DNA from: Longimicrobiales bacterium
GTDB taxonomy: Bacteria > Gemmatimonadota > Gemmatimonadetes > Longimicrobiales > Gaopeijiaceae
Length of the DNA stretch: 64,000 bases
NCBI GenBank assembly: GCA_951813395.1
Contig: OX638356.1
Span: 909,340 to 973,339 of the forward strand
Direction: 5' to 3'
Every line of letters starts with the position of its first letter. The stretch's first letter is position 1. Of this stretch, positions 4,836-33,680 are shown one piece after another. Position numbers and translations under genes: made by a program. The notes beneath the pieces are model-generated. The model was not told the origin of the DNA and ran no database searches. It was given only the letters and a program-made list of their open reading frames with translations.

Positions 4836-4845
4836 CGGCGAGCCG

Positions 4846-5751: not shown

Positions 5752-5930
5752 GACGTCCTGTGGCAGGTCCCACTTGATCCGCTATCCCGCGCCCCTGTAA
5801 CTTCCACGAGTGACAGTTCCGATTCGACCTTCACCCTGCCGGCGGTCTCTCCGGCCCGCCCTCCCCGACACGAGCCCATGAACCCACTGTTGCCCGGCCT
5901 CCGGGCTCCCCTCCGGCGGCGGCCCCAGGC

Positions 5931-7730: not shown

Positions 7731-7734
7731 GACG

Positions 7735-8505
7735 ATGGCCGACAAGGACACCATGACGCTGGAGGTCTTCCGGTATCACCCGGAAACCGACTCCGAGCCG
7801 CGCTTCCAGTCGTACGAAGTCCCCTACAACGAGGACTGGGTCGTCCTGGACGCGATCAACTGGGTCAAGGACCACGTTGACGGCTCGCTCACGCACCGCT
7901 GGAGCTGCCGCATGGGCGTGTGCGGGAGCTGCGGGATGATGGTGAACGGCGAACCGAAGCTGACCTGTGCCGCTTTCCTGAAGGACTACTACCCGTTCCC
8001 GATCAAGGTGGAGCCGCTGGTGAACTTCGCCGTGGAGCGGGATCTGGTGGTCGCGATGGACGGATTCATGGAAAAGCTGCAGGACGTGAAGCCGTACATC
8101 ATCCGCGACGACGTGAACGACACGTCGGACGGCGAATACCGGCAGTCACCCGCGGAGCTCGCGCAGTACAAGCAGTACTCGATGTGCATCAACTGCATGC
8201 TCTGCTACGCGGCGTGTCCGGTGGCGGGCCACGAGGACGACTTCCTGGGCCCCGCGGCGCTCGCGCTGGGCCACCGCTACAACAAGGACTCGCGCGACCA
8301 GGGCCAGGCCGAGCGCCTGGACGTGATGCTGGCGGGCGAGGCGATCTGGGGCTGCACCTTCGTGGGCGAGTGCACGGTCGTCTGTCCCAAGCACGTGGAC
8401 CCGGCCGGCGCGATCCAGCAGGCCAAGGCGATGGCCGCCCAGGAGTACTTCAAGGGCTTCGTGATGCCGAAGGGAACGGGTGTGGCGAAGGGAGCGGCCA
8501 AATGA
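7735..8505 (+). CDS. frdB: Fumarate reductase / succinate dehydrogenase iron-sulfur subunit
   Basis: 256 residues with all three cluster sites. The [2Fe-2S] cysteines are C58, C63, C66 and C78 (CRMGVCGSC...C). A [4Fe-4S] motif CINCMLCYAACP and a [3Fe-4S]-type motif CTFVGECTVVCPKHVDP follow in the C-terminal half. The protein carries electrons from the flavoprotein to the quinone site in the membrane subunits. It starts four bases after the frdA stop and its own stop overlaps the frdC start, so the subunits are translationally coupled. Confidence 0.95.
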   Translation: MADKDTMTLEVFRYHPETDSEPRFQSYEVPYNEDWVVLDAINWVKDHVDGSLTHRWSCRMGVCGSCGMMVNGEPKLTCAAFLKDYYPFPIKVEPLVNFAVERDLVVAMDGFMEKLQDVKPYIIRDDVNDTSDGEYRQSPAELAQYKQYSMCINCMLCYAACPVAGHEDDFLGPAALALGHRYNKDSRDQGQAERLDVMLAGEAIWGCTFVGECTVVCPKHVDPAGAIQQAKAMAAQEYFKGFVMPKGTGVAKGAAK

Positions 8506-8888
8506 GCGGACAGTACCACCGGTCCCACAGGTGGGCCTGGTTCTTCGAGCGCCCGGGCTACATGCGCTTCATGCTGCGCGAAGTCACCAGCTTTTTCGTC
8601 GCGGGCTACCTGGTGTTGCTGCTGGTGACCCTGGGCAGGCTGGGCGGGGGCGAAGCCGCCTTCGTCGAGTGGCTTGCGTCCGTGAGCGGCCCATGGTGGA
8701 TGACCGCGCACCTGGTGGCGCTCGCCGCGGCCATATGGCATGCGGTGACCTGGTTCGGCGCCGTCCCGCAGGCGATGCCGATCTACGTGGGCGAGAACCG
8801 GCTGCCCGCGCCGATCGCGGCGATCGTCATGGGGTACGGGCCGTGGCTGACGGTGACCGCCGTGATCGTGTGGTGGGTGCTGCGATGA
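8502..8888 (+). CDS. frdC: Fumarate reductase membrane anchor FrdC
   Basis: 128 residues with three hydrophobic segments (about 27-47, 63-83, 102-125), the size and topology of FrdC. The N-terminal WAWFFERPGYMRFMLREVTSF resembles the FrdC region that contacts the iron-sulfur subunit, and HAVTWFGAVPQAMPI matches the characteristic HxxTWF segment. It anchors the catalytic subunits and helps form the quinone site. The ATG at 8502 overlaps the frdB stop by four bases, and the frdD ATG overlaps its own stop. Confidence 0.85.
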   Translation: MSGQYHRSHRWAWFFERPGYMRFMLREVTSFFVAGYLVLLLVTLGRLGGGEAAFVEWLASVSGPWWMTAHLVALAAAIWHAVTWFGAVPQAMPIYVGENRLPAPIAAIVMGYGPWLTVTAVIVWWVLR

Positions 8889-9235
8889 AGCGCTCCAGCG
8901 AGGCCCTCTGGTGGGCGCTCTTTTCGGCCGGGGGCGTGATGGCGGCGCTCTTCGTGCCCGCGTTCGTGATCGTCACCGGGTTCCTTCTGCCGGCGGGAGA
9001 TGCGGCGGTGGCAGCCGAACGGACCGCACGGTTCGCCGCCGCCGTGGGATGGTGGCCGGTCAAGCTTGCGCTGCTCGGGATCATCGCGCTGTCGCTCATC
9101 CACGCAGGCCACCGGATCCGCCACACGCTGATGGACCTGGGGATGCGGAAGCAATCCGGCCTGCTCAAGGTGCCGTGCTACGGCGGCGCGCTGGCAGGCA
9201 CCGTCTGGGCGGCGATGGTGCTCTGGGGGATCTAG
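8885..9235 (+). CDS. frdD: Fumarate reductase membrane anchor FrdD
   Basis: 116 residues with three predicted membrane helices, starting MKRSSEALWWALFSAGG, the usual FrdD N-terminus. SLIHAGHRIRHTLMDLG near residue 78 corresponds to the conserved FrdD HxxHRIRHxxxDxG segment. It completes the four-subunit complex. ATG overlaps the frdC stop (ATGA). The operon ends here: 13 bases later the stop codon of an opposite-strand Fic gene is reached. Confidence 0.85.
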   Translation: MKRSSEALWWALFSAGGVMAALFVPAFVIVTGFLLPAGDAAVAAERTARFAAAVGWWPVKLALLGIIALSLIHAGHRIRHTLMDLGMRKQSGLLKVPCYGGALAGTVWAAMVLWGI

Positions 9236-9248
9236 GTGGGCACGACCC

Positions 9249-10556
9249 TCACGCCTCGGCCCCCTCCAGCTCCAATCCCTCCAGCGCCTCCGGCTTCACC
9301 CCGTACAGCACGGCGACACCCGGGTGGAGCGTGCGGAATGAACTCTCGACGAAATCGAACACCTTCTGCTGATCGACCAGCGGGATGTCGGCGTCCTCGA
9401 TCATCCGCCACACGCGCCTGGGCTCGAATCCCCGCCATCGCAGGATGCAGCGGCGAACGGCCCGGTTTGCGAAGCGGCTGTATACCACTTCGACCCTCTC
9501 GATCCTGATTGCCTCCGGTCGCAGGTAGCGGTACCGTCGTGCCGCCTCGACGTAGCCGTTGACGAACGCCTGGCGCAGGAGCGAGACGTCGTTCAGCTCG
9601 TATACCCCCAACAGACCCCGGATGTAGTCGTGGTCGTCGATGGCGAAGAACGACATGGGAGCCAGATCGGCCTTCAGCAGGGGGATGTTGGACGCGATCC
9701 GTGACGTCCGCTTGTTCACGTCGGCGAACGGCTGCAGATAGGGAATGTGGACGAGCAGGAAGAAGGACTGCTCGAAGGGGTCGCTTATGCGGGCCGCCCT
9801 GGAGAGCACCATGTCCAGTTCTTCTTGCAGCGCAAAACGATCCTCCAGTGGTGTGTAGGAGGATCTGCCGACCGCGATCGGCATGCGCCGCAAGCTGCCC
9901 ACCAGGCTCCGATCCCGAATCAGCCGGTTGGACAGGAGTGAGTGGATGTTGCGCAGGTCCGCCCACCCGATCTCGATCTCGGCGAGCTTCTCCACTACGT
10001 ATCGGGTCGCGTTCTTGTGATTGAGGATCATGACCGCTTCGTCGAATGACTTGCCGTCCGCTGTCCGGCCGGTCCGCACCAGGAAGTCGGTCTCGAGGTG
10101 GTCGTAGCTGTTGCCCTCCAGACGCGACGAAGCCCACGACATGTCGACTTCGAGCTGCTTGCGGACGCGCTCCGCGTAGGTGACGCCCATCGACGCGTGG
10201 TAGGGCTCCAGGACTGGGGTGCCCGCCTTCTCCAGCTCCGCCCGGTCGGCGTCGGTCAGGTAGCGCGATTCGTTGGGCCGGTAGCTCCCCACGAACTCGC
10301 TGTGGTACACGGCCGGTGGCCGATTCTGGAACGGCGTGCGGAGGTGTGCGAGGACGGATTCGCCCCCGGCCACGCGATAGCGGGTCCCCCGACCCTCACC
10401 CACCACCTCCAGCAACCCGTCGTCGACGAGCCGCCGGAGAGCCCGCCACACCGTGGAGGCGCTTGCATCGGGTGCGACATCCCGACGAACCTGGGACCGG
10501 CTGCGCTCCGGGTGATTGGCGACGTACGACAGAACTGCGCGGTCTGTGAGCAGCAT
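9249..10556 (-). CDS. Fic family protein with N-terminal winged helix, degenerate catalytic motif
   Basis: 435 residues. Residues 1-60 form a winged-helix DNA-binding domain (VLSYVANHPERSRSQVRRDV). The inhibitory motif of class II/III Fic proteins is present as SSRLEGN (143-149). The active-site loop reads LQPFADVNKRTSR (274-286): the canonical HPFxxGNGR has lost its catalytic His (Gln275) and one Gly (Val279), while Asp, Asn and both Arg remain. I recall similar QPFxDVNKR Fic proteins elsewhere, so this is probably a stable subfamily rather than a decayed gene. AMP-transfer activity is doubtful. It may regulate itself through the winged helix; a dyad lies just upstream. Confidence 0.88.
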   Translation of the reverse strand: MLLTDRAVLSYVANHPERSRSQVRRDVAPDASASTVWRALRRLVDDGLLEVVGEGRGTRYRVAGGESVLAHLRTPFQNRPPAVYHSEFVGSYRPNESRYLTDADRAELEKAGTPVLEPYHASMGVTYAERVRKQLEVDMSWASSRLEGNSYDHLETDFLVRTGRTADGKSFDEAVMILNHKNATRYVVEKLAEIEIGWADLRNIHSLLSNRLIRDRSLVGSLRRMPIAVGRSSYTPLEDRFALQEELDMVLSRAARISDPFEQSFFLLVHIPYLQPFADVNKRTSRIASNIPLLKADLAPMSFFAIDDHDYIRGLLGVYELNDVSLLRQAFVNGYVEAARRYRYLRPEAIRIERVEVVYSRFANRAVRRCILRWRGFEPRRVWRMIEDADIPLVDQQKVFDFVESSFRTLHPGVAVLYGVKPEALEGLELEGAEA

Positions 10557-10576
10557 GACATGTATTTGGGTTCAGG

Positions 10577-10593
10577 ATGACACATTTCGTCAT
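10577..10593. promoter_or_regulatory. Candidate operator upstream of the Fic gene
   Basis: A 17-base interrupted dyad, ATGAC-N7-GTCAT, begins 20 bases upstream of the Fic start codon. Further ATGAC words occur at the Fic start itself and near 10,641 and 10,648. The region is locally AT-rich in an otherwise GC-rich window. It could bind the winged helix of the adjacent Fic protein. This is inferred from position only. Confidence 0.35.
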
Positions 10594-10743
10594 CGATAAT
10601 GACCGGTTATGGCGCTATTGTCAAAATATCACGTCAACAGTATGACATGAATGACGCGGAACGCCCGTTGTTCCCTATGTTTCCCGTGAACCGATCAAGG
10701 CCCGAACGCCGCCAGCCGCGCATGCATTGAAAGACCGCACGCA

Positions 10744-11901
10744 TTGAAAGACATCGTCACCCACCTGGCCCGCTTCTGCGGCGCGCTGCGCGAGGCGGGC
10801 ATCGCGGTCACGCTCGGGGACGAGATCGATGCCGCCGAATCGCTCGCCCACGTCGACATCGGTGACCGCGGCGAGGTCCGGCTGGCGCTCATGACCAGCC
10901 TCAAGGTCGAGCCGCGCGCGTGGCCCGCATTCGACTACGTATTCGACCGTTTCTGGCGGCCGGACGGGCCGCGGCGGGAGGGCGAGACGCAGGCGCGCAG
11001 GAAGCGCCGGCAGGCCCCGCGCACCTGGCCGGGCCAGGACAATCCGCTGACCGCGCTCGCCCGCACGATTGCGGAGAGGGGGCGCGTGGGGCCGGTCGAC
11101 GACGACGAAGCCCCCGGCCCCGATGGTGGGCGCCCCGGCTACAGCCCGCGCGCGCTGCTCCGCCGCAAGTCGTTCGAGCAGTGCAGCGCGGAAGAGCTCG
11201 CGGCCATGGAGCGGCTGATCGAGCAGGTCGCGCGCCAGCTGGCCACGCGCCGCAGCCGGCGCCTGGTCCCGTCGCCGCGGGGCGCCGCGATCGACCTGCG
11301 CCGCAGCTTCCGCCGCGCCCTCGCACGCGACGGCGAGTTCCTGGATCTGGCCCGTCGCGACCGTGCCGTGGAGCGGCCGCGGATCGTGTTCATATGTGAC
11401 ACGAGCGGTTCGATGGACCCTTACTCCCGGCTCGCGCTGGCCTTCATCCTGTCTCTGGGCAAGGTTGCGCGCCGGACCGAGATCTTCGCCCTCAATACCT
11501 CACTCACACGCCTTACGCCCTGGATCACGGCCGGGAATCTGACCGCCACGCTGGCCCGCTTCGCCCGCAATGTGGAGGACTGGTCGGGCGGCACGCGCAT
11601 TGGCGAATGCCTGACGGATTTCGCGCATGATTACTTGCGCCAGGTGGTCGCAGGTGATACATCGGTCCTAGTCTTCAGCGACGGGCTCGACCGGGGCGCT
11701 ACGGAGTCCCTGGAGACCGCGCTGTTGGCGATCCGGCGGCGCGCGCGGCGTGTCATCTGGCTGAACCCGCTCATGGGCGACCCGCGGTACCGGCCCGAAG
11801 CCAGGGGCATGAAGGCGGCGCTGCCTCACATTGACCACCTCGTGCCCGCTCACAACCTGGAGTCGCTCGAGGCTCTGCTGCCGATGCTGGGGCGGGGCTG
11901 A
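10744..11901 (+). CDS. coxE: CoxE, VWA-domain protein
   Basis: 385 residues, the usual CoxE size. The N-terminus (VTHLARFCGALREAGIAVTLGDEIDAA) is typical of the CoxE family, and the C-terminal VWA domain begins with a MIDAS motif DTSGSMD at residues 219-225. Together with the MoxR ATPase CoxD it is needed to build the copper-sulfur part of the CO dehydrogenase active site. The start is a TTG at 10,744; no ATG or GTG in frame is better placed. It heads the second block of cox genes and is followed closely by coxG. Confidence 0.9.
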   Translation: MKDIVTHLARFCGALREAGIAVTLGDEIDAAESLAHVDIGDRGEVRLALMTSLKVEPRAWPAFDYVFDRFWRPDGPRREGETQARRKRRQAPRTWPGQDNPLTALARTIAERGRVGPVDDDEAPGPDGGRPGYSPRALLRRKSFEQCSAEELAAMERLIEQVARQLATRRSRRLVPSPRGAAIDLRRSFRRALARDGEFLDLARRDRAVERPRIVFICDTSGSMDPYSRLALAFILSLGKVARRTEIFALNTSLTRLTPWITAGNLTATLARFARNVEDWSGGTRIGECLTDFAHDYLRQVVAGDTSVLVFSDGLDRGATESLETALLAIRRRARRVIWLNPLMGDPRYRPEARGMKAALPHIDHLVPAHNLESLEALLPMLGRG

Positions 11902-17798: not shown

Positions 17799-19399
17799 GA
17801 GGCTGCGCCGCAGAAAACCGCGGCGGCTATCATTAGAGGTATCGAGGGCATAGCGAAAGGTTTGCGGCCAGCCGAGGGGGGTCAATGGGAACGACGTTCC
17901 GACCGTACCAGCCGGACCAGATTCTGATGCTGCCACCGGATCTTCGGGAGTGGGTGCCGGAGGGGCATCTGGCGCACCACGTGAGCGATCTGGTGGACGC
18001 GGTGGATCTGAGTGCGTTCTACGCGCCGTACGAAGGGGACGGGCGTCGCAACGCGCCGTACGATCCGCGGATGATGGTCAAGGTGCTGATCTACGCGTAT
18101 GCGACGGGGACGTTTTCGTCGCGGAAGATGGCGAAGAGGCTGGAGGAGGATGTGGCGTTTCGGATGCTGGCTGCGGGGAACTTTCCGAAGCACCGGACGC
18201 TGTGCGAGTTCCGCAAGCGGCATCTTGAAGACTTCCGGGCGGTGTTCGTCCAGGTGGTGGTGCTCGCGCGGGCCTCGGGCCTGGTGGGGCTGGGCAGGGT
18301 ATCGGTGGACGGGACGAAGGTTCGGGCGAACGCGAGCAAGCGCAAGGCGATGAGCTACGGCCGGATGGCGAAGGAGGAGTTGCGGCTGAAGGCGGAGATC
18401 GAGGCGCTGGTGGGGCGAGCCGAGGCGGTGGACGAAGCGGAGGACGAGCGGTTCGGCGAGGAGGCTCGCGGAGACGAGTTGCCGGACGAACTCAAGCGGC
18501 GCGAGGACCGGCTGGCGGCGATCCGGGAGGCGAAGGCGCGCCTGGAGGCTGAGCAGAGAGCGGCGGACGATGCGCGGGGCCGCAAGCCGGGGCAGAAGCG
18601 CAACCCGAAGGGTGGCAGTCCCTACAAGCGGGAGTACGGGGAGCCGGACGAGCGGGCGCAGAGCAACTTCACGGATCCGGAGAGCCGGATCATGAAGACT
18701 TCTTCGGAGGGGTTCCAGCAGAGCTACAACGCGCAGACGGCGGTGGAGGGGGAGAACCAGTTGGTGGTGGGCGCCGGGGTGACGAACAACGCGAGCGACC
18801 AGGGCCAGCTGATTCCGATGATCGATGGGGCGGAGGCGGTGTGCGGCGGGACGCCCGGCCAGGTGCTGGCGGACGCGGGATACGGCAACGAGCAGGACCT
18901 CCGGGAACTGGAGAAGCGGGGCGTTGACGGGTACGTGGCGCTGGGCCGGGAGGGCAAGGCGCCCGCCAGGATCGATCCGGAGAAGCATCCCGCAAGGGCG
19001 CGCATGGCCGACAAGCTGGCGACGGATGAGGGCCGAAGACGCTACGGGCGTCGCAAGTGGCAGGCGGAGGCGCCCATCGGATGGATCAAGGAGGCGATGG
19101 GCTTTCGGCGATTCAGCTTCCGGGGCCTCGAGAAGGTCCAGGCCGAGTGGACTCTCGTGTGTCTGGCGCTCAATGTGAAGCGGCTGCACACCCTTCAGGC
19201 AGCATGAGACCGTGATCGTTCACCACCGACGCCGGCCCCGGCGCTCTCGAAGACCCTCGCCACCCCAATTCACGGCCTGCGGCCTCCCTCAGCCCCTCAG
19301 CGGCGCGGATCCCCACCCCCTCGCTCCTCGAAGCAGTCTGCCCGCCGCCGATCCTCACGCCTTTCTGTCACATCCACTGCGCTTCTGCGGCGCACGCTC
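17799..19399. mobile_element. IS1182-family insertion sequence
   Basis: Imperfect terminal inverted repeats: left GAGGCTGCGCCGCAGAA (17,799-17,815), right TTCTGCGGCGCACGCTC (19,383-19,399), 15 of 17 bases paired. Both ends are flanked by CTAG (17,795-17,798 and 19,400-19,403), a four-base target duplication. The element carries one transposase gene reading outward on the plus strand. It interrupts a small minus-strand gene whose frame is restored when the element and one CTAG are removed. Confidence 0.85.
17885..19207 (+). CDS. IS1182-family transposase
   Basis: 440 residues. The N-terminal DUF772-type region includes FRMLAAGNFPKHRTLCEFRKRH; the DDE catalytic core includes VSVDGTKVRANASKRKAMSY (first Asp) and VLADAGYGNEQDL (second Asp); the C-terminus has APIGWIKEAMGFRRFSFRGL, the usual closing helix region with the last acidic residue. 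A charged coiled-coil insertion (EAVDEAEDERFGEEARGDEL) lies between the first two catalytic blocks, as in other IS1182 transposases. No frameshift or stop is visible, so the element may be active. Confidence 0.92.
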   Translation: MGTTFRPYQPDQILMLPPDLREWVPEGHLAHHVSDLVDAVDLSAFYAPYEGDGRRNAPYDPRMMVKVLIYAYATGTFSSRKMAKRLEEDVAFRMLAAGNFPKHRTLCEFRKRHLEDFRAVFVQVVVLARASGLVGLGRVSVDGTKVRANASKRKAMSYGRMAKEELRLKAEIEALVGRAEAVDEAEDERFGEEARGDELPDELKRREDRLAAIREAKARLEAEQRAADDARGRKPGQKRNPKGGSPYKREYGEPDERAQSNFTDPESRIMKTSSEGFQQSYNAQTAVEGENQLVVGAGVTNNASDQGQLIPMIDGAEAVCGGTPGQVLADAGYGNEQDLRELEKRGVDGYVALGREGKAPARIDPEKHPARARMADKLATDEGRRRYGRRKWQAEAPIGWIKEAMGFRRFSFRGLEKVQAEWTLVCLALNVKRLHTLQAA

Positions 19400-20373: not shown

Positions 20374-21261
20374 CTACCGCGTCGTGGCCACGGCCCGCGC
20401 CACGATCTCCCGCATTTCCCTCCACGGCACCGTGTCGAAGCAGAGCGTCTTGCCGAAGGTGGCCAGCTCGCGGACGACGGCTTGAAACTCCTTGGCGGGG
20501 AGGCCGCGACCATCTCTGGCGGCGTCGAAGTACTCGGCGATCAAGGCCGCGTGGAGGCGGGAACTGTTCACGACCGTGATGCGCCGTACCGAGTCGCCAA
20601 CGAGCCGCGCCCAGGCATCGCTGCCCGCGTGGAGCACGCGGTGAGCGTCCTCCACACTGAACGGCTCGCCGACCCTCTTGGACTCGGCGGCGGCGAGCCG
20701 AGCCACGCGGTGGCGCCACCACGCGCATGAGATCGGGCAGTCCACCAGGACCGAAAGCTTGCCTCTCACGTGCGGCAGGCCGCCTATGCGTCTGAACAGG
20801 TTGCGGACGGCAGCATCGGTTGTTGCGGGCACCTTGCCCGTCACCTTCGCGCCGAGGAAGAAGGGATCCAGCCGAGGTTCGAAACACTCTGCCTCCATCC
20901 ACGCGATGTGGCAGAGGGCCCAGAATGCGGGTTGGGCTGCGATTGCAGGGGTGAGATCCGGCAGGGCACCGCAAAGGTCGCTTTCCAGTGCCAAGGGAGG
21001 GTCCCGGTATTCGGATGAGGTCAGCGGACGGGGAAGCTCGGGAGCGTCGATTTCCTGCCGGACGCCCAACCCCAGCTGGCCACGCATATAGCTTGCCAGG
21101 GCCTGCGGCCCCTTCTTGACCGCAGCGACCAACTCATCCTGTAACGGTTTGGCTCTCTCGTTGTGAGCGGTGGCGTGCTTGTCGTCCTTGCGGCCCGTCT
21201 GGACGGCAGCGGTCTGCCAGGTGCTCAGGCGTTCCCGGTGTGCGTGGGATGGCGCCTTCAT
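20374..21261 (-). CDS. DUF6339-like protein, fourth gene of candidate defence operon
   Basis: 295 residues, mostly helical, no signal peptide. The segment VDCPISCAWWRHRVARL (about residues 165-181) followed by VLHAGSDAWARLVGDSVRR resembles the DUF6339 pattern, in which a 'conserved W-W-R' helix precedes a segment listing DxWxxL. N-terminal residues 1-40 are polar and probably flexible. The ATG overlaps the stop of the previous gene (ATGA), so it is translated together with the GHKL ATPase and its partner. DUF6339 proteins have no established biochemical role; their company in accessory islands suggests a role in defence. Family call is tentative. Confidence 0.6.
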   Translation of the reverse strand: MKAPSHAHRERLSTWQTAAVQTGRKDDKHATAHNERAKPLQDELVAAVKKGPQALASYMRGQLGLGVRQEIDAPELPRPLTSSEYRDPPLALESDLCGALPDLTPAIAAQPAFWALCHIAWMEAECFEPRLDPFFLGAKVTGKVPATTDAAVRNLFRRIGGLPHVRGKLSVLVDCPISCAWWRHRVARLAAAESKRVGEPFSVEDAHRVLHAGSDAWARLVGDSVRRITVVNSSRLHAALIAEYFDAARDGRGLPAKEFQAVVRELATFGKTLCFDTVPWREMREIVARAVATTR

Positions 21262-22079
21262 TCGTCGTCCGCCTCCGCCTTCTTATCGGGCAACACGAAC
21301 CGTTCGACTGCGGTGGCGGCGCGTGCCGGATCGTATTCGGAGGGATCCGTCCAGTCGGCCACGTTGGCGTCTTCAAGTACGCTCCTAATGCGCTCCAGAA
21401 CGGGATACTGAGCCGCTTTTCCCCGGTCGTCCGCAGCCGTGTCCTGCGGCGGCCCGACCACGCCGGGGATTCGGCCGAACGCCGCGATCAGCGCGGCGAT
21501 CTGGACGTCTCGGTTTTGGGCACGTGTCTCGAACATTCTTGGCGACATCTTCACATGAAACCGGAGGTCCCCTTCGCCTGTGAACGGCGTGACCGTCATC
21601 CTGCCATCGACAAGATCCTGGTCTGGGAACAGCCTGATAAGGGAGCTTCCCAGCTGTTCCGCGTTGCGGGCGTTGCCTCGAACCAGCCAGCGACCTGGTG
21701 GCACGACGATCGGATTCTCTCCCCATACCGCATGCATACTCTCCGTATCGAGATTGACCTCCTGCGTCGTCACCATGCCCGGTATCACGTAGCTACCCGA
21801 CGTGACCCTGTTCGTGTCCCATTCGAATGCGAACTTCCGCTCCCGGCTCGAGCCCGCCATTCCAGCGTACAACGTCGCCGGGGACCGAAGCTCGACGACC
21901 CATTCGGCCTTCCCTCCGGCCACCAGCTCACCCAGTTGGGTGGCTCCTTGTAGCCTGTGTTCGACTTTACCACTAGCACTGCCAATCACGACCCGCGCCT
22001 CGTAGGCCGCGTCCGGCCAATCCAAGGAGGTATCATCCTCCAGAAGGATGGGGACCGACTTGGAAGTGTAGGCTGTCAA
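21258..22079 (-). CDS. Unknown protein, third gene of candidate defence operon
   Basis: 273 residues, no signal peptide or membrane segment. It is rich in predicted beta strands in the first 170 residues (VVIGSASGKVEHRLQGATQL, WVVELRSPATLYAGMAGSSR) and helical near the end, closing with a very acidic tail (DKKAEADDE). I do not recognise the family. ATGA overlaps at both ends (21,258-21,261 and 22,076-22,079) tie its expression to both neighbours, so it is probably a structural partner of the GHKL protein. Its strand-rich composition would suit a scaffold or recognition domain, an inference only. Confidence 0.75.
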   Translation of the reverse strand: MTAYTSKSVPILLEDDTSLDWPDAAYEARVVIGSASGKVEHRLQGATQLGELVAGGKAEWVVELRSPATLYAGMAGSSRERKFAFEWDTNRVTSGSYVIPGMVTTQEVNLDTESMHAVWGENPIVVPPGRWLVRGNARNAEQLGSSLIRLFPDQDLVDGRMTVTPFTGEGDLRFHVKMSPRMFETRAQNRDVQIAALIAAFGRIPGVVGPPQDTAADDRGKAAQYPVLERIRSVLEDANVADWTDPSEYDPARAATAVERFVLPDKKAEADDE

Positions 22080-24007
22080 TCCCGGTCCTCGCTTTCTCGT
22101 TTGCGGCGGACCAAATCGAGCTCCAGATGCCGGTCCGGATGCACGGACCGCGAGAGGCGGATCACGACGTTGCCGTCACATTCCGATGGCAACCGGACTT
22201 CGGAGTCGTCGCCGACCGAGATGCTCCTGCCATCGATCTCAACGCTTTCGATTTCGAGCCACTCGTCCGGTATCGGGGAATCGCACCCGGCGTCGGAGCC
22301 GGACTCGGCCCGCATGCGAAGACAGATGTCGTCGTTCCCCCGCTCTTCGCGAAGCTCGAACGCGGCTTGCACGCGCGTCCCCGTGCCATGCCCGTCGTCG
22401 GAATCGGACAGCAGCACCAAGCCGCTCCGCATGTCCACCGCCGGACCCGGCGCGGGTGTTCGGCGGGCACGCTTCCTCTTCCTCCGGCGGTGACCGTCGC
22501 CGTTGGACCCCTGCGTCTGGTCATCCTCACCGTTGTCGGAGGTTCCCTCGTTCTTGCCCTTTCTCCTTCGCGGCCGCCTGCGAGGAATGACCTCCGCCAT
22601 GCGTTCCGCGTCGCCGGGGAAGACAGCGAAGCCTTCGGGGGCGAATCCGTCGTCGGTGGCGAGCGGTCCCGCGTGCTCGCTGAGGATGCGCGCCAGACTC
22701 TTCAGCTTCTTGGCAAGCAGCCGTTGGCAATCGGGCTTCAACCTTCGCCTTTCCAAGTCACGGTGGGCCGGGCCCTCGGCGCCACGCACCAAGTCGTAGA
22801 GGGTTCCTTCACGCTCGCTTCCGGGATCCTCCAGCAGCACGACGGCGTCAAATGGCTTGGCCGTGCCGAACGCATGGTACTCCAGGTGCGGGGCGCTGAA
22901 GGTGATCCACATGCCGTCCCGAAACACCTGAACCCGCGTTCGCTCGCTCGACGACAGCGACCGGAAGAGGACGCGCACGGAAGGATCCGACGCAACATCG
23001 CCGAGCGGTGCAACCGCAAGGTCCTTCCCCTGCTGGAGCGTCTCGTAGGCCCGGTAGGCCTGTTCGCCGGGCAACCATCCGCCTCCCGCGCCGCGCCGAG
23101 AGTGCTTCTGCTTCCTGATCTCGGCCAAGCAGCGCTCCAAGGACCCATGATCGATCAATTGGTCCGCGTCCAATGTCTCATCTGTGACCCGAACGACCAT
23201 CTTACGCTCCTGGATTGCGCCAAGAAAGTTCACGGCAGCCACACGGACGATATCGCGGAAGGCCCTTCGGGCGTCGGCCTCGCGGAAATGGTTGAAGCCG
23301 AGAATGGCCACGACCGTGCCGGAATCCTCGATCAGCGTGATCTGTTCCTCCAGGATTCGGGGGACAATTTGGCCGAACTGTGCCGTCTTGAGGTTAAAGG
23401 GCTCCTCAGGTACTGCCCAATACCCGTCGGCGCTCCGACGCAAGGTGCTTCTGTCGCGGGTCGGATGAGTGGCGACGATGGCGTGACCGCTGATCACATG
23501 GTCCTTTGCGCGCCTCCCGGCGTAGAGGACATAGCGCAGATCGGACGCGGCGAAGGCGGCCAGATGCCCCAGTCCGAAGGATCCGGCACCCTTGCGGGGC
23601 TTGTCACTGTTGCCCTGCGACAGGACCGCTCGCATGCGATCATCGTCCAGTCCGATACCGTTGTCACGGCAAAACAGAACCCTTGCCTCGCTGGCCTCCA
23701 AGACCGCCAGGATCCGATCAATCGCGTTTTGCTCATCCAGGGTGAGCTCCCCTTGGCTTTGCTGCCGCTCTTCGTACGCGGCGTGGAATGACGACTCGTA
23801 CTCGGAGATGCCCGGAAAGTCGTCAACCGGCATGCTGGCCACAGTCAAGTGAACCTCAGCGCGCCGCCCGGCGCTGATCGCGGCGTCAAGTGCGTTCTGC
23901 AGGAGCTCCCGCACGACGCCTTCCGCGTAGACGGAACCGCTGGTGACAGCATTCGTGAAGCCATCGATCTTGGCGGTCGGAGGGAAATGGAGCTGGGCGT
24001 TGGGCAC
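22076..24007 (-). CDS. GHKL (Hsp90/MutL-type) ATPase, second gene of candidate defence operon
   Basis: 643 residues. All three ATP-binding boxes of the GHKL fold are present: ELLQNALDAA (E34, N38, D41), DNGIGLDDD (115-123) and GAGSFGLGHLAAF (140-152). A charged, Arg/Lys/Asp-rich linker lies near residues 460-510 (RRRPRRRKGKNEG, HRRRKRKRARR), followed by a C-terminal strand-rich domain of about 130 residues. GHKL ATPases of this size act as ATP-driven clamps (MutL, MORC, Hsp90), and several phage-defence systems use one. Its gene overlaps the next by four bases and starts five bases after the PP-loop gene. Fold is certain; target is unknown. Confidence 0.88.
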   Translation of the reverse strand: MPNAQLHFPPTAKIDGFTNAVTSGSVYAEGVVRELLQNALDAAISAGRRAEVHLTVASMPVDDFPGISEYESSFHAAYEERQQSQGELTLDEQNAIDRILAVLEASEARVLFCRDNGIGLDDDRMRAVLSQGNSDKPRKGAGSFGLGHLAAFAASDLRYVLYAGRRAKDHVISGHAIVATHPTRDRSTLRRSADGYWAVPEEPFNLKTAQFGQIVPRILEEQITLIEDSGTVVAILGFNHFREADARRAFRDIVRVAAVNFLGAIQERKMVVRVTDETLDADQLIDHGSLERCLAEIRKQKHSRRGAGGGWLPGEQAYRAYETLQQGKDLAVAPLGDVASDPSVRVLFRSLSSSERTRVQVFRDGMWITFSAPHLEYHAFGTAKPFDAVVLLEDPGSEREGTLYDLVRGAEGPAHRDLERRRLKPDCQRLLAKKLKSLARILSEHAGPLATDDGFAPEGFAVFPGDAERMAEVIPRRRPRRRKGKNEGTSDNGEDDQTQGSNGDGHRRRKRKRARRTPAPGPAVDMRSGLVLLSDSDDGHGTGTRVQAAFELREERGNDDICLRMRAESGSDAGCDSPIPDEWLEIESVEIDGRSISVGDDSEVRLPSECDGNVVIRLSRSVHPDRHLELDLVRRKRESEDRD

Positions 24008-24012
24008 AGGCG

Positions 24013-25362
24013 TCAGTCAGTGCAGTCGCAGGCGGGTGAACCGGTGGTATAGCGTCCGTTCAGCGCGCAGTCAGTGTTGGCAATGTCGGCATACGATGGG
24101 CCGTTGACGCCGAAGAATCCGAACACTGTGTGGCCCGATCCGTTCCGGGCGGGAGCTGTGCGGCGATAGCGTCGTTCAATGCTATCCCACCAACCGATGT
24201 CGGAAGGCGTGTCGGCCACTCGGTCGGGGTCCAGGCTCTGCGCGACCGCACGCAGATCGTGCGTGCCCTTCATGAAGCAGAAGACACAGTTGCCAGCACC
24301 GGTCGGCAGCTCGAGACCCCGGTCGCGGGCGTTCCAGTAGGTGTCGACATCACTCGTGGTCCAACCCGCGTCGGCCAGTGGAAAATACGGATGCTCGCCG
24401 GGGGGTTGCGTACGGATCGCACACTTCGCGCTTCCAGCGCCCTCGGCGAACAGGGTGCGGTCGAGGATCCGCGTAACGCGCTGTGGTTCGTCCGCACGAA
24501 GCCCAAGCAGCGTAACGAATTCGGCCGGGCGATGACCCCAAAGGCTGACGGGTCCCGGCTCGCCGATCCGCCCGAAGGTAGCGTCCGCGCCCGTGAAGTC
24601 GTTCCAACGCTGTCGGCCGCGGGAGGGTGGCTTGCGCAGGACACACGCGATGCGCGTGCGGAACGAGTCCGATTCGTCAGTCCCCCGGTTCGCACGGTAT
24701 CGCCGCTCGCTGGCATCTCGATCGACAAACGAGCGGTCCGAGTAGTGGCCGTCGTGTCGCGGACCTGCTGTGCCGCCGAGCCACTCCGCCAATAGCAAGT
24801 GGGCGGGGTAAAGCTTGAGCTTGGCCGTGCAACTCCGGGAATGGGGGTTCGGGAGCATGCCCTGGAACGACAGGAGCTCTTCGAACGCCTCCCCTCGAGA
24901 CCGGTATCCGTTCGGGTCGTCCTCGATGGGCCGGCGGGTTACCAGTCGGTAAGAGAGTCGGCGCCGGTACACGCCCCGGTATGCGTCCTCGACTGTGCAG
25001 AACTCGTACCAGAAACACGGCAAGCCGTAGTCGCGCTCGATTTCTTCGCAGCACCTGGCCGCGAACTCGTAGCTCCGCGGGTGCTCGGCGGAGGTGTTGG
25101 CAAAGAGGACCACATCCCCGCGCTCGCCGGAAAGGGTCCCGGCCGAAGCCATCTCCAGGACCAGCGCCGCCGATGAGCGGCCGCCCGAGAACTTGACCAC
25201 GTGCGGCAGAGATTCGTGGTTCGGGTTGCGATAGAGCAGTGGGCCGATGGGCGGGGGTTGTCTCTTAGATTTCACCGCGGTCGCGGATCCGGATTGCCCG
25301 GAAGACGCGCGTGTAAGCGTCGTCAGTTTTGACGGCGATCGGGGAGGAGCTAGGAGAGCCAC
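24013..25362 (-). CDS. PAPS-reductase-like PP-loop enzyme, first gene of candidate defence operon
   Basis: About 449 residues with the GTG start at 25,362, which has AAGG five bases upstream; a GTG at 25,275 would give 420. The PP-loop nucleotide motif is VVKFSGGRSSAAL. Cysteines occur in the places used by DndC-type enzymes for a cluster or sulfur transfer: SRSCTAKLKLYP and GNCVFCFMKGTHDL. The family activates a substrate with ATP and moves sulfur or reduces a sulfated nucleotide; in Dnd and Ssp systems the relative DndC puts sulfur in the DNA backbone. No DndA, DndB, DndD or DndE is visible nearby. First gene of a four-gene operon; DNA modification is an inference. Confidence 0.82.
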   Translation of the reverse strand: MALLAPPRSPSKLTTLTRASSGQSGSATAVKSKRQPPPIGPLLYRNPNHESLPHVVKFSGGRSSAALVLEMASAGTLSGERGDVVLFANTSAEHPRSYEFAARCCEEIERDYGLPCFWYEFCTVEDAYRGVYRRRLSYRLVTRRPIEDDPNGYRSRGEAFEELLSFQGMLPNPHSRSCTAKLKLYPAHLLLAEWLGGTAGPRHDGHYSDRSFVDRDASERRYRANRGTDESDSFRTRIACVLRKPPSRGRQRWNDFTGADATFGRIGEPGPVSLWGHRPAEFVTLLGLRADEPQRVTRILDRTLFAEGAGSAKCAIRTQPPGEHPYFPLADAGWTTSDVDTYWNARDRGLELPTGAGNCVFCFMKGTHDLRAVAQSLDPDRVADTPSDIGWWDSIERRYRRTAPARNGSGHTVFGFFGVNGPSYADIANTDCALNGRYTTGSPACDCTD

Positions 25363-25799: not shown

Positions 25800-26969
25800 G
25801 TGTAGTGTCCCGTAAGTATCTTGCCATAATAGAGAAGATCGGGTATCATTCCTCTCATCCACCCGAACGAGGAAGATATCATGCCCAGGGGACGTCCGTT
25901 GAAAGCGCTCGAAGTCAGCCGGGGCGCCCGTGAGGAACTCGAGTCGCTGGTGCGTTCGCGCAGCCTGCCCGCCGGGCTCGTCCGCCGTGCCGAGATCGTG
26001 CTTCTGTGCGCCGATGGGTTGGACAACCAGGCGGTCGCCGAGAGGGTCCGCACCGGCCGCCAGACGGTCGGCAAGTGGCGCGAGCGCTTCCGAACCCAGG
26101 GCCTCATGGGCCTGTACGACGAACGCAGGCCGGGAAAGCCTCGTTCCATCGAAGACGACGAGGTCATGGTGCTGCTGAGGAAGACGCTCGACACCCGGCC
26201 TCCCGATGGCAGCACGCACTGGAGCTGCCGCTCCATGGCCGAGGCGGCGGGGCTGTCGAAGTCCACGGTCCACCGCGTGTGGACGGCGTTCAACCTCCAG
26301 CCCCACCGGCAGAAGCACTTCAAGCTCTCCACCGACCCGTTCTTCGCCGAAAAGGTCCGCGACATCGTCGGCCTCTACCTCAACCCGCCGGAGGGCGCGA
26401 TGGTGCTCTGCGTGGACGAGAAGAGCCAGACCCAGGCGCTGGAGCGAACCCAGCCTCTGCTGCCCCTCGGGCTCGGATACGTCGAGGGCGTCACACACGG
26501 CTACATCCGTCACGGCACGACCACCCTCTTCGCCGCCCTGGACGTCGCCACCGGCCAGGTTCTCGCCCAGTGCAAGGCGCGGCATCGCCACCAGGAGTTC
26601 CTGAGCTTCCTCCGGCACATCGACGCCAACGTGCCCCCAGACCTGGATGTCCACCTCGTCGTCGACAACTACGGCACCCACAAGCACGCCAAGGTCAAGC
26701 GCTGGCTCGCCACCCGGCCACGCTACCACATCCACTTCACCCCCACCTACTCCTCCTGGATCAACCAGGTCGAGATCTGGTTCAACATCATCACCCAGAA
26801 GGCCATCCGCCGCGGCTCCTTCTCCTCGGTCACCCAGCTCAAGGAGAAGATCCTCCGCTTCACCGACCAGTACAACCCCGGTGCCCAGCCGTTCATGTGG
26901 ACCGCCACCGCAGACTCCATCCTCCAGAAGATCCAGAGACTATGTACAGCTATCTCTGGGACACAACAC
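25800..26969. mobile_element. IS630-family insertion sequence
   Basis: Terminal inverted repeats GTGTAGTGTCCC (left, 25,800-25,811) and its near complement GGGACACAACAC (right, 26,958-26,969), with one mismatch. The ends are flanked by TA (25,798-25,799 and 26,970-26,971), the standard IS630 target duplication. One intact transposase gene fills the element. Its right TA was later used as the target of the next element. Confidence 0.9.
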
Positions 26970-26972
26970 TAG
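25881..26972 (+). CDS. IS630-family transposase
   Basis: 363 residues, intact. The N-terminal helix-turn-helix domain covers RRAEIVLLCADGLDNQAVAE and a second HTH lies near residue 130 (STHWSCRSMAEAAGLSKSTV). The DDE core has MVLCVDEKSQTQALERTQP (first Asp), LDVHLVVDNYGTHKHAKVK (second Asp) and SSWINQVEIWFNIITQKAI (Glu). The gene runs through the right inverted repeat, and its TAG stop is completed by the TA target copy, so the C-terminus depends on the insertion site. Confidence 0.94.
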   Translation: MPRGRPLKALEVSRGAREELESLVRSRSLPAGLVRRAEIVLLCADGLDNQAVAERVRTGRQTVGKWRERFRTQGLMGLYDERRPGKPRSIEDDEVMVLLRKTLDTRPPDGSTHWSCRSMAEAAGLSKSTVHRVWTAFNLQPHRQKHFKLSTDPFFAEKVRDIVGLYLNPPEGAMVLCVDEKSQTQALERTQPLLPLGLGYVEGVTHGYIRHGTTTLFAALDVATGQVLAQCKARHRHQEFLSFLRHIDANVPPDLDVHLVVDNYGTHKHAKVKRWLATRPRYHIHFTPTYSSWINQVEIWFNIITQKAIRRGSFSSVTQLKEKILRFTDQYNPGAQPFMWTATADSILQKIQRLCTAISGTQH

Positions 26973-28477
26973 CAGGCCGTGGAAGAAGTGGCTCGCTGGG
27001 GAGCTGGTGGCGGAAGCGGCAAGAACGACGTGATTGCGGTTTTGTTGTGCATCAGGCGGCTGAGCGGCGGACGGGGCCGACCTGTGTGCCCTGGAGGCCG
27101 AGAACGCGCCCGATGTGGCGAAAGAAGGCGGCAAGACTGTGTGCGGACGCGTCGGCGAGAGCCGCGGCCGCCGCTGCGAGGCCCTGCAGGCCACGCGGGG
27201 TGCCGAAGCCGAAACATTTGCGCATCACCAGCGAGAGGTTGAAGGCCGCGGCGTGAACGAGCATCCGTTTTCGGATCTCCTCGTGTCCGCGAACGTGGAC
27301 GCGGCGCAACCCTCCGCTGCCGAGCAGGTGCGCGAACGTCCGCTCCAGCTTCTCCCCTCGCTCGCGCAGCAGCCGCTTTCCCCGCTCGCCCTTGATGCGG
27401 CGGCGGTTGCCGTACACGGCCTCCTGCGCGTCCCGCTTGCCCTTCCACTTCCGGCGGCCCCGGTTCGGCTCGCTCACATAGGTTCGCAGTCCCCGCTTCT
27501 TCACGCCCGTCATGGTCGCGTTCGAGTGGTAGCCCTTGTCGCCCACCACTTCCTTCGGCTCCGCTCCCACATCCGCCAGCCGCTGCTCCGTCTCGTCCAG
27601 CGTCACCGGCAGCGACGCGGTGTCGCCACCGTCCATCGTCTGCACCGTGACGGCGGCCACCGCACCGGTCTCCATGTCCACCCCCACCTCGAGCTTGTGA
27701 GCCAGGCGGGTCCTGCCGTCCTTCATCTTCGTGATCCGCGCCTCCGGGTCGTGCGGATGCTTCCAGTCCTTGTTCGACCCCTTCTTCGGGCGCTTGCGGT
27801 CCATCTTCGCAAGGTCCTGCCGCGTCGGCGTCTCGATCCCCGACGCTTTCGCCAACTGCTCCAGCCACGCGTCGTACTCCGTCCCCTCATCACGCCTCAC
27901 GATCGCGCGCATCGCCGCGTTCGCCTCCAGCGTCGTCGAATCCACCCCCACCGTCTTGCCTCGCAGCAGCCCCGACTCCTGCAGCCGTTCCAGCACCCAG
28001 CCGAACACCGCCCCGTGGGCTTCCAGGCTCAGCCGCTTGCGCGTCTTCGACAGCGTGGAATGCTCCGGCGGCGTCTTCGCCAGACCGTAGCCCAGAAACT
28101 CCCGCAACGAGATCGAGTCCCTGCACCGCCACGCGATACCCCGCTCCGATCCGATCCCCTCCAGATATCCCACCATCAGCATCCGGAAGTACACGCCCGG
28201 CGCGAGGCCCGGCCTACCCATCCGCTCCGCGTAAAACTCCCGGCACGTCTCCTCCGCGAACTCGTCGAAACCGCTCTTGCGCAGCAGCTTGTCCAGCGCC
28301 GCGTAGAACGGGTTGTCCAGCGCCCCGACCGCACTGGCCGCGATGAACAGCTCCTCCTGCCGCTCACCGGGCATCTTGCCTATCGCCATCGCCGTCACCT
28401 CTCGCTGAGGTCCTCGTGTCCTCCTAATTTAACTCATTCACAAGAGCCTCGTGGGGCGGATTTTATCCACGGCCTGT
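26972..28477. mobile_element. IS5/IS1182-type insertion sequence inserted beside IS630
   Basis: Terminal repeats: left GCAGGCCGTGGA, right end complementary to ACAGGCCGTGGA (28,466-28,477). TA flanks both sides (26,970-26,971 and 28,478-28,479). The left TA is the same dinucleotide that bounds IS630, so this element entered after IS630. The single transposase gene is on the minus strand. Confidence 0.8.
27052..28389 (-). CDS. IS5/IS1182-type DDE transposase
   Basis: 445 residues from the ATG at 28,389, which has GAGAGG eight bases upstream; a GTG at 28,398 is an alternative. The N-terminal DUF772-type block is YFRMLMVGYLEGIGSERGI and TPPEHSTLSKTRKRLS. Catalytic blocks: TVGVDSTTLEANAAMR (first Asp), EVVGDKGYHSNATM (second Asp), GNRRRIKGERGKRLLRERGE and following for the last acidic residue. 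No interruption is visible. A shadow frame exists on the opposite strand along the whole gene. Confidence 0.9.
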   Translation of the reverse strand: MAIGKMPGERQEELFIAASAVGALDNPFYAALDKLLRKSGFDEFAEETCREFYAERMGRPGLAPGVYFRMLMVGYLEGIGSERGIAWRCRDSISLREFLGYGLAKTPPEHSTLSKTRKRLSLEAHGAVFGWVLERLQESGLLRGKTVGVDSTTLEANAAMRAIVRRDEGTEYDAWLEQLAKASGIETPTRQDLAKMDRKRPKKGSNKDWKHPHDPEARITKMKDGRTRLAHKLEVGVDMETGAVAAVTVQTMDGGDTASLPVTLDETEQRLADVGAEPKEVVGDKGYHSNATMTGVKKRGLRTYVSEPNRGRRKWKGKRDAQEAVYGNRRRIKGERGKRLLRERGEKLERTFAHLLGSGGLRRVHVRGHEEIRKRMLVHAAAFNLSLVMRKCFGFGTPRGLQGLAAAAAALADASAHSLAAFFRHIGRVLGLQGTQVGPVRRSAA

Positions 28478-31169: not shown

Positions 31170-33680
31170 ATGACCACCCAACCTGCCTCCACCATCCGCA
31201 AGTTCAACCCCGGCCTGCTCCAGTCGGACGAGGAGATCAGGGAGCAGTTCGTGGTCCGTGGTCACGAACTCGGCCTCCTGCTCGATGACCTGCGGGGCAA
31301 CATCAGTTCCCCCTCGTGTCAGCACATTCTCGTGGTCGGGCCTCGCGGGCGGGGCAAGACCATGCTGCTCGCACGGGTCGCGGCAGAGTTGCGTAGCAAC
31401 GAGGACTTCGCCGCGTCCCTATTGCCGGTGCGGTTCATGGAAGAGAGCCAGGAAATCTTCAGTCTCACAGACTTCTGGCTGGAGACCATGTTCCATCTGG
31501 CCAACGAAATCGACGATCACGATGCGAGGGTGGCGCGGGAACTCCGTGACACACGGGCTGCACTTTCGCCGCGCTGGCGGGAGCAGATCACCGAGGCGCA
31601 GGCCCGCGCCGCCGTACTCGACGCTGCGGATCGACTGGGCAAGCAGTTGGTTCTCATTGTCGAGAACCTGCAGTCTCTCTTCCAGGACGTCCACGACGAT
31701 TTCGGCTGGCAACTCCGCGAAGTCCTTCAAACGGAACCGCAGGTCATTCTGCTGGCCTCCGCCACCAGCCGCTTCCGCGAATTGGACGACGTGAGCGAGC
31801 CGTTCTTCGAGATGTTCCGCATCGTCGGGCTCGAACCGCTCGACACGGAGGAGTGCGGTCGCCTGTGGGCAGTCGTGAGCGGGAAGCGCGCGAGCCGGTC
31901 CGAAGTCAGGCCGCTCCAGATTCTCACGGGCGGCAATCCTCGCCTGCTGGTGATGGCGGCCGAGTTCGCCCGGCATCGCTCCCTCCGCCGGCCGATGTCC
32001 GAACTGGTCACCGTGATCGACGAGCACACCGAGTACTTCCGTGGTCACCTGGAGGCCCTGGCGAAGACGGAACGGCGCGTGTACGTGGCGGTGCTCGACC
32101 TGTGGCAGCCCTCTTCGGCGAGCGAGATTGCGGCACGGGCGCGCGTCGACATTCGGGTGGCGTCGACCATGTTGGGGCGGCTGGTCCTACGCGGTGCCGT
32201 CAACCGGCAGGGCCGCGGTCGGAAGCGGCTGTATTCGGCCGCCGAGCCGTTGCACAGCATGTACTACAAGCTGCGGCGCGAGCGGGACGAGGCGGCGGTC
32301 GTCGAGAACCTGATCCGATTCATGGTGGCGTGCTATGGATTCGAGGATCTGGTAAACTTCGTCGCGCCGCTGTCGACCGAGGTGGCCGAGTCGGATGCCC
32401 TACGCCGGGGCGTCCGGCGGGCGCTTGGAGCCAGGCCGACCTTGGGCGACCGCGACTTGGATGTGAAGTGGGGCGCCATCCAGCAGGTCTCGTACGTGGC
32501 CGAAGCCCTTGCCGAGTCCGCCGCCACCCAACGCCTTCGCTCCGACATCGAAGCTGCGCTTGCGGAGGAACGGTACGAGAAGGTCGTCAGTCTGGTCGAC
32601 AGGTATGTCGCGGATGGGTGGCTTGAGAGCCCGGAACCATTGGCGGCGATGCGCACTGCCTGGACGACCTATCACCTGTCGTTCGCGCATGCGCAATTGG
32701 GAAACCCGCGCGCTGTGCTTTCAGTCTCCGACAGAGCAATGGTACTTGCCGACCACCCCAATTCCACGATTCTGGCTTGGACGGCGCCAACCCTGGTGGC
32801 GCGAGCGGCGGCACAATTGCAGCTCGGGGACTTCAGTTCCGCGGTCGAGACCTGCGACGATATCGTACGCCGATTCGGATCCTGGCCGCATCGCCCCTTC
32901 AGCGCGGTGATCGCAGAAACACTTGTCACACGGGGATGCGCAAAGGCTCATATCGACGATGATCGGGACGCCATCCGGGACTACGACGAAGTAGTAGATC
33001 GATTCGGCGATAGCCAGCTCCCAGAAATCCAGGTAAGCCTCGTTGTCGCGCTGATGAGCAAGGCCCTTGCATGCCGACGCCTCGGCGACACGGAAGAAGA
33101 GATCCGCAGTTACGATGCCGTCATTGAGCGCTTCGATTGCTCTGATGCCCTGGATATCCGGCAGGATGCGGCCGTGGCGCTGAGCTGGAAATGCATGGCG
33201 CAGGCCGGTATTGGTCTCGCCGACGAAGCTCTTGTGAGTTGCAAGAGGCTGGAAAAGACGGTTCACTCTTGGCCGACGGATGAGGAAGATCCATCGGCAA
33301 AATCTTGGGTGGAATGGTTGAAATGGCGCGCGGAAGGGGCGAGGTCGTTGGCCCTGGCCGTCCAGAAGAATCATCGTGCCTCGCTGGACTCTTTTCGGGC
33401 TGGCTATGCCGTGTTTCTGCCCGACTACAGGATGACGACGCAGGAGATGCTGGACTTGGCGGCCAAGTTGGTCGCGAGAGGCGTTCCACCCCTAGACCTG
33501 CTGGCGGTTCTTTCCAGCGACACCGCCAAGTCCGGAACGCTGCATCCCCTGCTCGTAGCCCTGCACCAGCGCGCGGGTGACGGAGTACGAGCTCCCAGGG
33601 AAATCGAAGAGGTGGCCGCCGACGTTCGTGGGCGGTTTCGCGAGGCCGAGGAACGGATGCGCACCGCGACATCCACCTGA
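31170..33680 (+). CDS. Large P-loop ATPase with C-terminal TPR-like repeats (STAND-like)
   Basis: 836 residues. Walker A is GPRGRGKT at 57-64; a Walker B-like stretch QLVLIVENLQSLF lies near residue 160; sensor-like LLASATSRF near 190; then a winged-helix region (SSASEIAARARVDIRVASTM). The second half (about 430-800) is all helical with repeated TPR-like units (VRRFGSWPHRPFSAVIAETL, VDRFGDSQLPEIQVSLVVAL, IERFDCSDALDIRQDAAVAL), each around 45 residues. This NTPase-WH-repeat layout is that of STAND sensors, many of which detect phage proteins. No obvious effector domain is fused and the neighbours do not supply one. Role inferred from architecture and island context. Confidence 0.75.
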   Translation: MTTQPASTIRKFNPGLLQSDEEIREQFVVRGHELGLLLDDLRGNISSPSCQHILVVGPRGRGKTMLLARVAAELRSNEDFAASLLPVRFMEESQEIFSLTDFWLETMFHLANEIDDHDARVARELRDTRAALSPRWREQITEAQARAAVLDAADRLGKQLVLIVENLQSLFQDVHDDFGWQLREVLQTEPQVILLASATSRFRELDDVSEPFFEMFRIVGLEPLDTEECGRLWAVVSGKRASRSEVRPLQILTGGNPRLLVMAAEFARHRSLRRPMSELVTVIDEHTEYFRGHLEALAKTERRVYVAVLDLWQPSSASEIAARARVDIRVASTMLGRLVLRGAVNRQGRGRKRLYSAAEPLHSMYYKLRRERDEAAVVENLIRFMVACYGFEDLVNFVAPLSTEVAESDALRRGVRRALGARPTLGDRDLDVKWGAIQQVSYVAEALAESAATQRLRSDIEAALAEERYEKVVSLVDRYVADGWLESPEPLAAMRTAWTTYHLSFAHAQLGNPRAVLSVSDRAMVLADHPNSTILAWTAPTLVARAAAQLQLGDFSSAVETCDDIVRRFGSWPHRPFSAVIAETLVTRGCAKAHIDDDRDAIRDYDEVVDRFGDSQLPEIQVSLVVALMSKALACRRLGDTEEEIRSYDAVIERFDCSDALDIRQDAAVALSWKCMAQAGIGLADEALVSCKRLEKTVHSWPTDEEDPSAKSWVEWLKWRAEGARSLALAVQKNHRASLDSFRAGYAVFLPDYRMTTQEMLDLAAKLVARGVPPLDLLAVLSSDTAKSGTLHPLLVALHQRAGDGVRAPREIEEVAADVRGRFREAEERMRTATST

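Follow-up and report, generated by a model that had tools for sequence, protein, structure and literature searches.

The window analysed here, a stretch of 64,000 nucleotides from a Longimicrobiales bacterium (contig OX638356.1), carries a set of four genes, P1 to P4, that probably encodes a defence system based on sulfur modification of DNA, in which a GHKL ATPase core would replace DndD/DndE, SspB/SspC, or BrxC. An initial annotation, made from the sequence, had proposed DNA modification together with an ATP-driven component, and this is retained as the best model. The four genes are as follows.

24013..25362, minus strand: P1, 449 residues, putative GTG start; predicted PP-loop sulfurtransferase resembling phosphoadenosine phosphosulfate (PAPS) reductase, of the SspD/BrxP lineage
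22076..24007, minus strand: P2, 643 residues, GTG start; GHKL (MutL/Hsp90/MORC-like) ATPase, relative of PDC-M33A
21258..22079, minus strand: P3, 273 residues, TTG start; immunoglobulin/fibronectin type III (Ig/FNIII)-like beta-sandwich with a helical C-terminus, probable relative of PDC-M33B
20374..21261, minus strand: P4, 295 residues, ATG start; predicted all-helical protein, placed in the DUF6339 family through its L071 orthologue, in the position of PDC-M33C

The coordinates of the open reading frames agree with the spacing first reported (5, -4, and -4 bases), and a codon-usage gene caller preferred the frames of P1 to P4 over overlapping frames. The conserved core of P1 starts at approximately 25230, and the upstream GTG at 25362 is only a putative start. 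Compared with the closest relative (L031; loci are designated by L numbers), the ratio of nonsynonymous to synonymous substitution is 0.10 for P1, 0.22 for P2, 0.33 for P3, and 0.21 for P4, the last two computed over partial lengths; these values indicate purifying selection on all four genes. Scanning a P1 alignment against a collection of species genomes gave 41 P1 loci in Gemmatimonadota, Acidimicrobiia, Chloroflexota, Acidobacteriota, Gammaproteobacteria, Rhodobacteraceae, and Campylobacter, many of which look, judging from record titles, like sponge symbiont genomes. Ten of these loci run off the end of a contig, and another three (L035, L038, and L045, the last broken by a transposase) are interrupted or truncated; in the 28 with enough uninterrupted contig, P2, P3, and P4 are present without exception (28/28), which bears out the proposal that the four genes are a unit. 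When the phylum was searched with P2 instead, P1 accompanied each of the nine strong matches in other genomes and was missing from L028.

The gene order is P1-P2-P3-P4 in some loci, P2-P3-P4-P1 in others (L055, L068, L071), and P1-DndA-P2-P3-P4 in two (L027, L110). Tree distances of P1 to P4 are correlated (r 0.88-0.95; 0 of 2000 permutations), and the set of the window clusters with that of a Chloroflexota locus and not with its own genus, which together point to movement of the cassette as a whole. The set is rare elsewhere, with one occurrence among 395 Rhodobacteraceae and two among 153 Campylobacteraceae. One Rhodobacteraceae genome (G395) has two divergent copies (L110 and L055) that differ in gene order and both include a desulfurase.

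P1 had been described as a PP-loop sulfur enzyme with DndC-like cysteines; its PP-loop, conserved cysteines, and profile matches support a resemblance to SspD and DndC. Window P1 matches the SspD defence model at 3.3e-7 (8e-11 for an orthologue) and, in profile searches, the phage PAPS-reductase-like family phrog_424 at 5.9e-24. BrxP was seen in orthologues only, with a match of 1.8e-6 to the P1 orthologue of L068, and DndC weakly matched one orthologue (0.045); SspD, BrxP, and DndC, the defence profiles matched by P1 or its orthologues, are all phosphorothioation families. Window P1 has no Pfam match, Pfam and NCBIfam together left it unnamed, and sequence searches found no relative with a solved structure. 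It is 55-88% identical to most relatives and 35-38% identical to those in L055, L068, and L071. Neither P1 nor P2 had relatives among viral contigs, apart from distant PAPS-reductase-like genes of phages. An alignment of 25 sequences marks the following features of P1.

25171..25188, minus strand: PP-loop SGGRSS, residues 59-64
24829-24831, minus strand: C178, in 25/25 relatives
24277..24288, minus strand: CVFC motif with C359 and C362, both cysteines in 25/25 relatives
24022-24030, minus strand: C-terminal CDC with C445 and C447, in 24/25 relatives

Within the PP-loop, alignment columns S15-R18 and S20 are invariant and S19 is conserved in at least 90% of the sequences. The cysteines C178, C359, C362, C445, and C447 are candidates for binding an iron-sulfur cluster or carrying a persulfide.

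The identification of P2 as a GHKL ATPase also stands, with the N, G1, and G2 motifs intact.

23879..23911, minus strand: N box, RELLQNALDAA
23639-23665, minus strand: G1, DNGIGL
23564-23590, minus strand: G2, GAGSFGLGH

P2 matches the PADLOC model PDC-M33A at 1.1e-25 over residues 29-445 (hhalign 99.8%, E 1e-29) and P_loop_sacsin at 1.6e-7; its relatives with solved structures, as found by sequence, are Hsp90 and MutL only. The AlphaFold model of P3 (predicted local distance difference test score, pLDDT, 88.7) has an Ig/FNIII-like beta-sandwich followed by helices, and its structural matches are of Ig/FNIII type only, with Z under 7. The model of P4 (pLDDT 87.8) is all-helical, and alignment of the family reveals an invariant R-G-S-C-WWR core (alignment columns). 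Neither protein was named by Pfam or NCBIfam or has a relative of solved structure by sequence. Neither had a Foldseek match under 0.001 or a VIA-align match at Z of at least 8, so that no nuclease or other catalytic fold is assignable to P3 or P4; this lack of matches does not imply a new fold. P4 was initially called DUF6339-like. This holds at the level of the family, because the orthologue in L071 exceeds the Pfam cut-off for DUF6339 (24.0 vs 23.2 bits), but not for window P4 itself, which matches neither DUF6339 nor the PADLOC model of PDC-M33C.

The initial annotation knew of no described system matching the set, but P2-P3-P4 do have a precedent: P2 and, probably, P3 and P4 are distant relatives of PDC-M33A/B/C, a candidate system that PADLOC lists as a complete trio. 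In both, a GHKL ATPase is followed by a second protein and then by a protein of the DUF6339 family (for P4, by way of its L071 orthologue), and P3 aligns with PDC-M33B proteins (hhalign 94.7%, 6e-8). The two differ in that window P3 and P4, unlike P2, miss the PADLOC models, and in that a PP-loop gene is missing from the PDC-M33-type loci examined, whose neighbours are DNA methyltransferases. PDC-M33 is not named in the literature searched and no published mechanism was found for it; the same search, on DUF6339, PDC-M33, and phosphorothioation with GHKL, found no description of a system composed like P1-P4.

Eight loci without P1 were examined (L016/L104, counted once, L028, and L098-L103), and in all eight a DNA methyltransferase lies near the relatives of P2-P3-P4. 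Most are C5 enzymes accompanied by Vsr or by a type II endonuclease, and the remainder belong to the type I, MmeI, or Dam types. In L028, which is from the same class as the window genome, a C5 methyltransferase is directly upstream of the GHKL gene, which is the place of P1. The same methyltransferase models match one of the 28 P1 loci, and one more methyltransferase was recognized by eye near L071. The simplest reading of this exchange is that P1 would be the modifying enzyme of its branch. The plasmid loci L098-L101 and L103 also have a conserved small protein (about 62-77 residues) preceding the PDC-M33A gene, and a different small protein precedes that gene in Ligilactobacillus.

The same loci bear on another explanation, that P2-P3-P4 alone are the defence effector, as PDC-M33 would be, and that P1 is a linked self-marking enzyme with no joint machine. 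P2-P3-P4 do occur next to methyltransferases, enzymes able to modify DNA by themselves, in loci that lack P1; the trio counts as a complete candidate in PADLOC; and in Acidimicrobiia the slippery tract described below is carried by P1 alone. In this clade, however, the trio goes with P1 and the trees are correlated, and known sulfur systems need an ATPase partner for modification (PMC10853773). A trio acting separately from P1 is considered unlikely.

Long G/C tracts are concentrated in the operons of relatives, with 14 runs of at least 9 in 161 kb of operon sequence vs 1 in 371 kb of flanking sequence. In Acidimicrobiia a run of 10-18 G lies near codon 170 of P1, in L033, L037, and L044 a run of 9-15 C lies just after the likely start codon of P1, and two Longimicrobiales loci have 21 G within P2; the tract is in P1 in L047, L050, L056-L059, L062, L064, and L065 and in P2 in L039 and L040. 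Both in-frame and frame-shifted states occur among relatives, and the tracts look like sites of phase variation. Gene fission and pseudogene formation were considered for the split P1 genes of Acidimicrobiia and rejected, since most of these genes are accounted for by a poly-G tract where the gene splits. L031 and L061 have poly-C runs at the ends of their contigs, which were treated as artefacts. It is improbable that all of these tracts are assembly errors or products of slippage free of selection, with no functional meaning. Homopolymer lengths are uncertain in metagenome-assembled genomes (MAGs), where such runs are prone to error, many of the tracts are a single inherited event, and the window operon has no long tract, its longest homopolymer run being 6. 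Against this, the tracts have about four separate origins with every placement in P1 or P2, three loci have the tract just after the P1 start codon, in-frame and out-of-frame states coexist, and the flanks have a single such run.

The initial annotation stated that Dnd and Ssp components are lacking; DndA-like, DndB-like, and SspE/GmrSD-like genes are indeed absent from the window but accompany the set in other genomes. A cysteine desulfurase of DndA/IscS type lies within the set in L027, L055, L070, L071, and L110, and L071 has a DndB-like gene (PF14072, 1.4e-5, sub-threshold). A GmrSD/SspE-type gene, or a fragment of one, accompanies the set in about 13 loci, on the upstream side in some and on the downstream side in others, and the ten fullest of these genes carry the QR, DGxQR, FxxxN, and HHxFP motifs of modification-dependent nucleases (compare PMC12137116). 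Housekeeping desulfurases are able to replace DndA (PMC10853773), and some of the 13 Aminotran_5 proteins of the window genome could supply sulfur.

These neighbours also bear on whether the sulfur is destined for DNA, as preferred here, or for another target. P1 might thiolate tRNA, a nucleotide, or a partner protein, with the GHKL trio sensing or acting on the product. Thiolation of tRNA is common among PP-loop enzymes, P1 has CxxC and C-terminal CxC motifs, and no homologue of DndD, DndE, SspB, or SspC was found among the proteins scanned. P1 nevertheless occupies the place of the DNA methyltransferase of P1-less relatives, and the GmrSD/SspE-type and DndB-like genes adjoining the set are partners of DNA modification, so that a target other than DNA appears quite improbable. 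A sulfate-assimilation or other metabolic operon with an incidental GHKL protein, suggested by the PAPS-reductase-like annotation of P1, is scarcely tenable and was rejected, as a PAPS_reduct-family gene is present elsewhere in the genome (at 3388156), the operon has no sulfate-assimilation neighbours, and the cassette is sporadic, horizontally moved, and adjoined in relatives by Zorya and AbiV genes.

Several observations weigh against sulfur modification of DNA by this set. DndD, DndE, SspB, and SspC are required in the known systems, and no homologue of them was found; the SspD matches have only partial coverage; the desulfurases linked to the set score between DndA and IscS and below both equivalog cut-offs; and the window genome has no GmrSD_N protein. 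The direct comparison of P4 with PDC-M33C is very weak (hhalign 3.8%). The methyltransferase contrast is suggestive and not clean, because the models were built mostly from P1-less loci, and the loci are not independent samples, since most are MAG contigs and many come from sponges.

If sulfur modification of DNA is nevertheless the function of the set, P1 would be supplied with sulfur by a cysteine desulfurase (of DndA/IscS type and dedicated to the set in some relatives, a housekeeping enzyme in the window genome), activate its target with ATP via the PP-loop, and put the sulfur on DNA, most likely as phosphorothioate. P2 would be an ATP-driven GHKL clamp loading on DNA with P3 and P4, and the P2-P3-P4 complex would either present the site to P1 or read the mark and trigger restriction, filling the slot that DndD/DndE, SspB/SspC, or BrxC occupy in known sulfur systems. 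The SspE/GmrSD-type modification-sensing nuclease would be an optional extra effector, not present in the window genome. On a broader view, put forward tentatively, the set could represent a further kind of DNA-sulfur machinery, with the P-loop ATPase apparatus of Dnd, Ssp, and BREX type 4 replaced by a GHKL clamp acting together with a beta-sandwich protein and one of the DUF6339 family, with an interchangeable modifier (methyltransferase or sulfurtransferase, by branch), and with phase variation of the sulfur branch in several lineages. The ATPase of known DNA phosphorothioation systems is DndD, SspC, or BrxC; a GHKL-driven version, if real, would mean that the sulfur chemistry can be moved from one DNA-scanning engine to another, unrelated one. 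It would also provide a first functional handle on DUF6339 and PDC-M33, and slippery tracts in sponge symbionts would indicate strong, fluctuating selection, for example by phages.

Several other genes were observed near the set. In the window, the open reading frames flanking the operon (17885-19207, 25881-26972, and 27052-28398) were read by inspection as transposases. A Mrr-type restriction endonuclease at 29681-30772 matches only the first part of Mrr_cat and is perhaps truncated, and 31170-33680 encodes an 836-residue STAND-like ATPase (AAA_16) that also has winged-helix and TPR-like stretches. In a genome of the same genus, Zorya ZorC and ZorD genes directly adjoin the four-gene set (L021/L041, approximately 6201-11088), and in L035 a HEPN AbiV and DUF4268 gene (4675-5862) directly follows a P1 with a disrupted C-terminus.

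Among known systems, Ssp (SspABCD-SspE) resembles the set in that P1 matches SspD and the sets of relatives are accompanied by desulfurase and SspE/GmrSD-type genes. Its ATPase is not of the GHKL type found here, the window shares only P1 with it, and the window genome has no SspE-type effector; SspB and SspC had no PADLOC match among P1-P4 and the scanned window neighbours, the rest of the genome not having been searched. Dnd (DndABCDE) is approached by the fullest relatives, which have a cysteine desulfurase, a PP-loop enzyme, and a DndB-like gene. The set differs from it in having no ABC ATPase DndD and no DndE, and DndC, DndD, and DndE had no match among P1-P4 or the window neighbours scanned, the weak DndC match being that of a P1 orthologue. 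BREX type 4 has a PAPS-reductase-type modifier and a sporadic desulfurase (PMC12839542), both of which have counterparts in or beside P1-P4 relatives, but none of PglZ, BrxC, and BrxL is among the scanned window proteins. P1-P4 are not classed as Dnd, Ssp, or BREX type 4 because the ATPase and partner subunits of these systems were not found in the scanned proteins; the set may still work like them. VcSduA, a Shedu protein with a GHKL domain, likewise places a GHKL ATPase in phage defence, but it is a single gene with a fused nuclease and no modification enzyme (PMC12137116). MORC/paraMORC GHKL ATPases in restriction-modification operons are a known concept, and the part of that source consulted describes no sulfur-transfer partner for them (PMC2292703). 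They share with P1-P4 a GHKL ATPase, its motifs present in P2, that is coupled (in P1-P4 presumably) to DNA modification, and P1-less relatives, the only ones in a restriction-modification context, lie in operons with Dcm and Vsr as in that account. Exchange of P1 for a methyltransferase would give these GHKL/MORC-type ATPases a concrete role, either as readers of DNA marks or as loaders for them.

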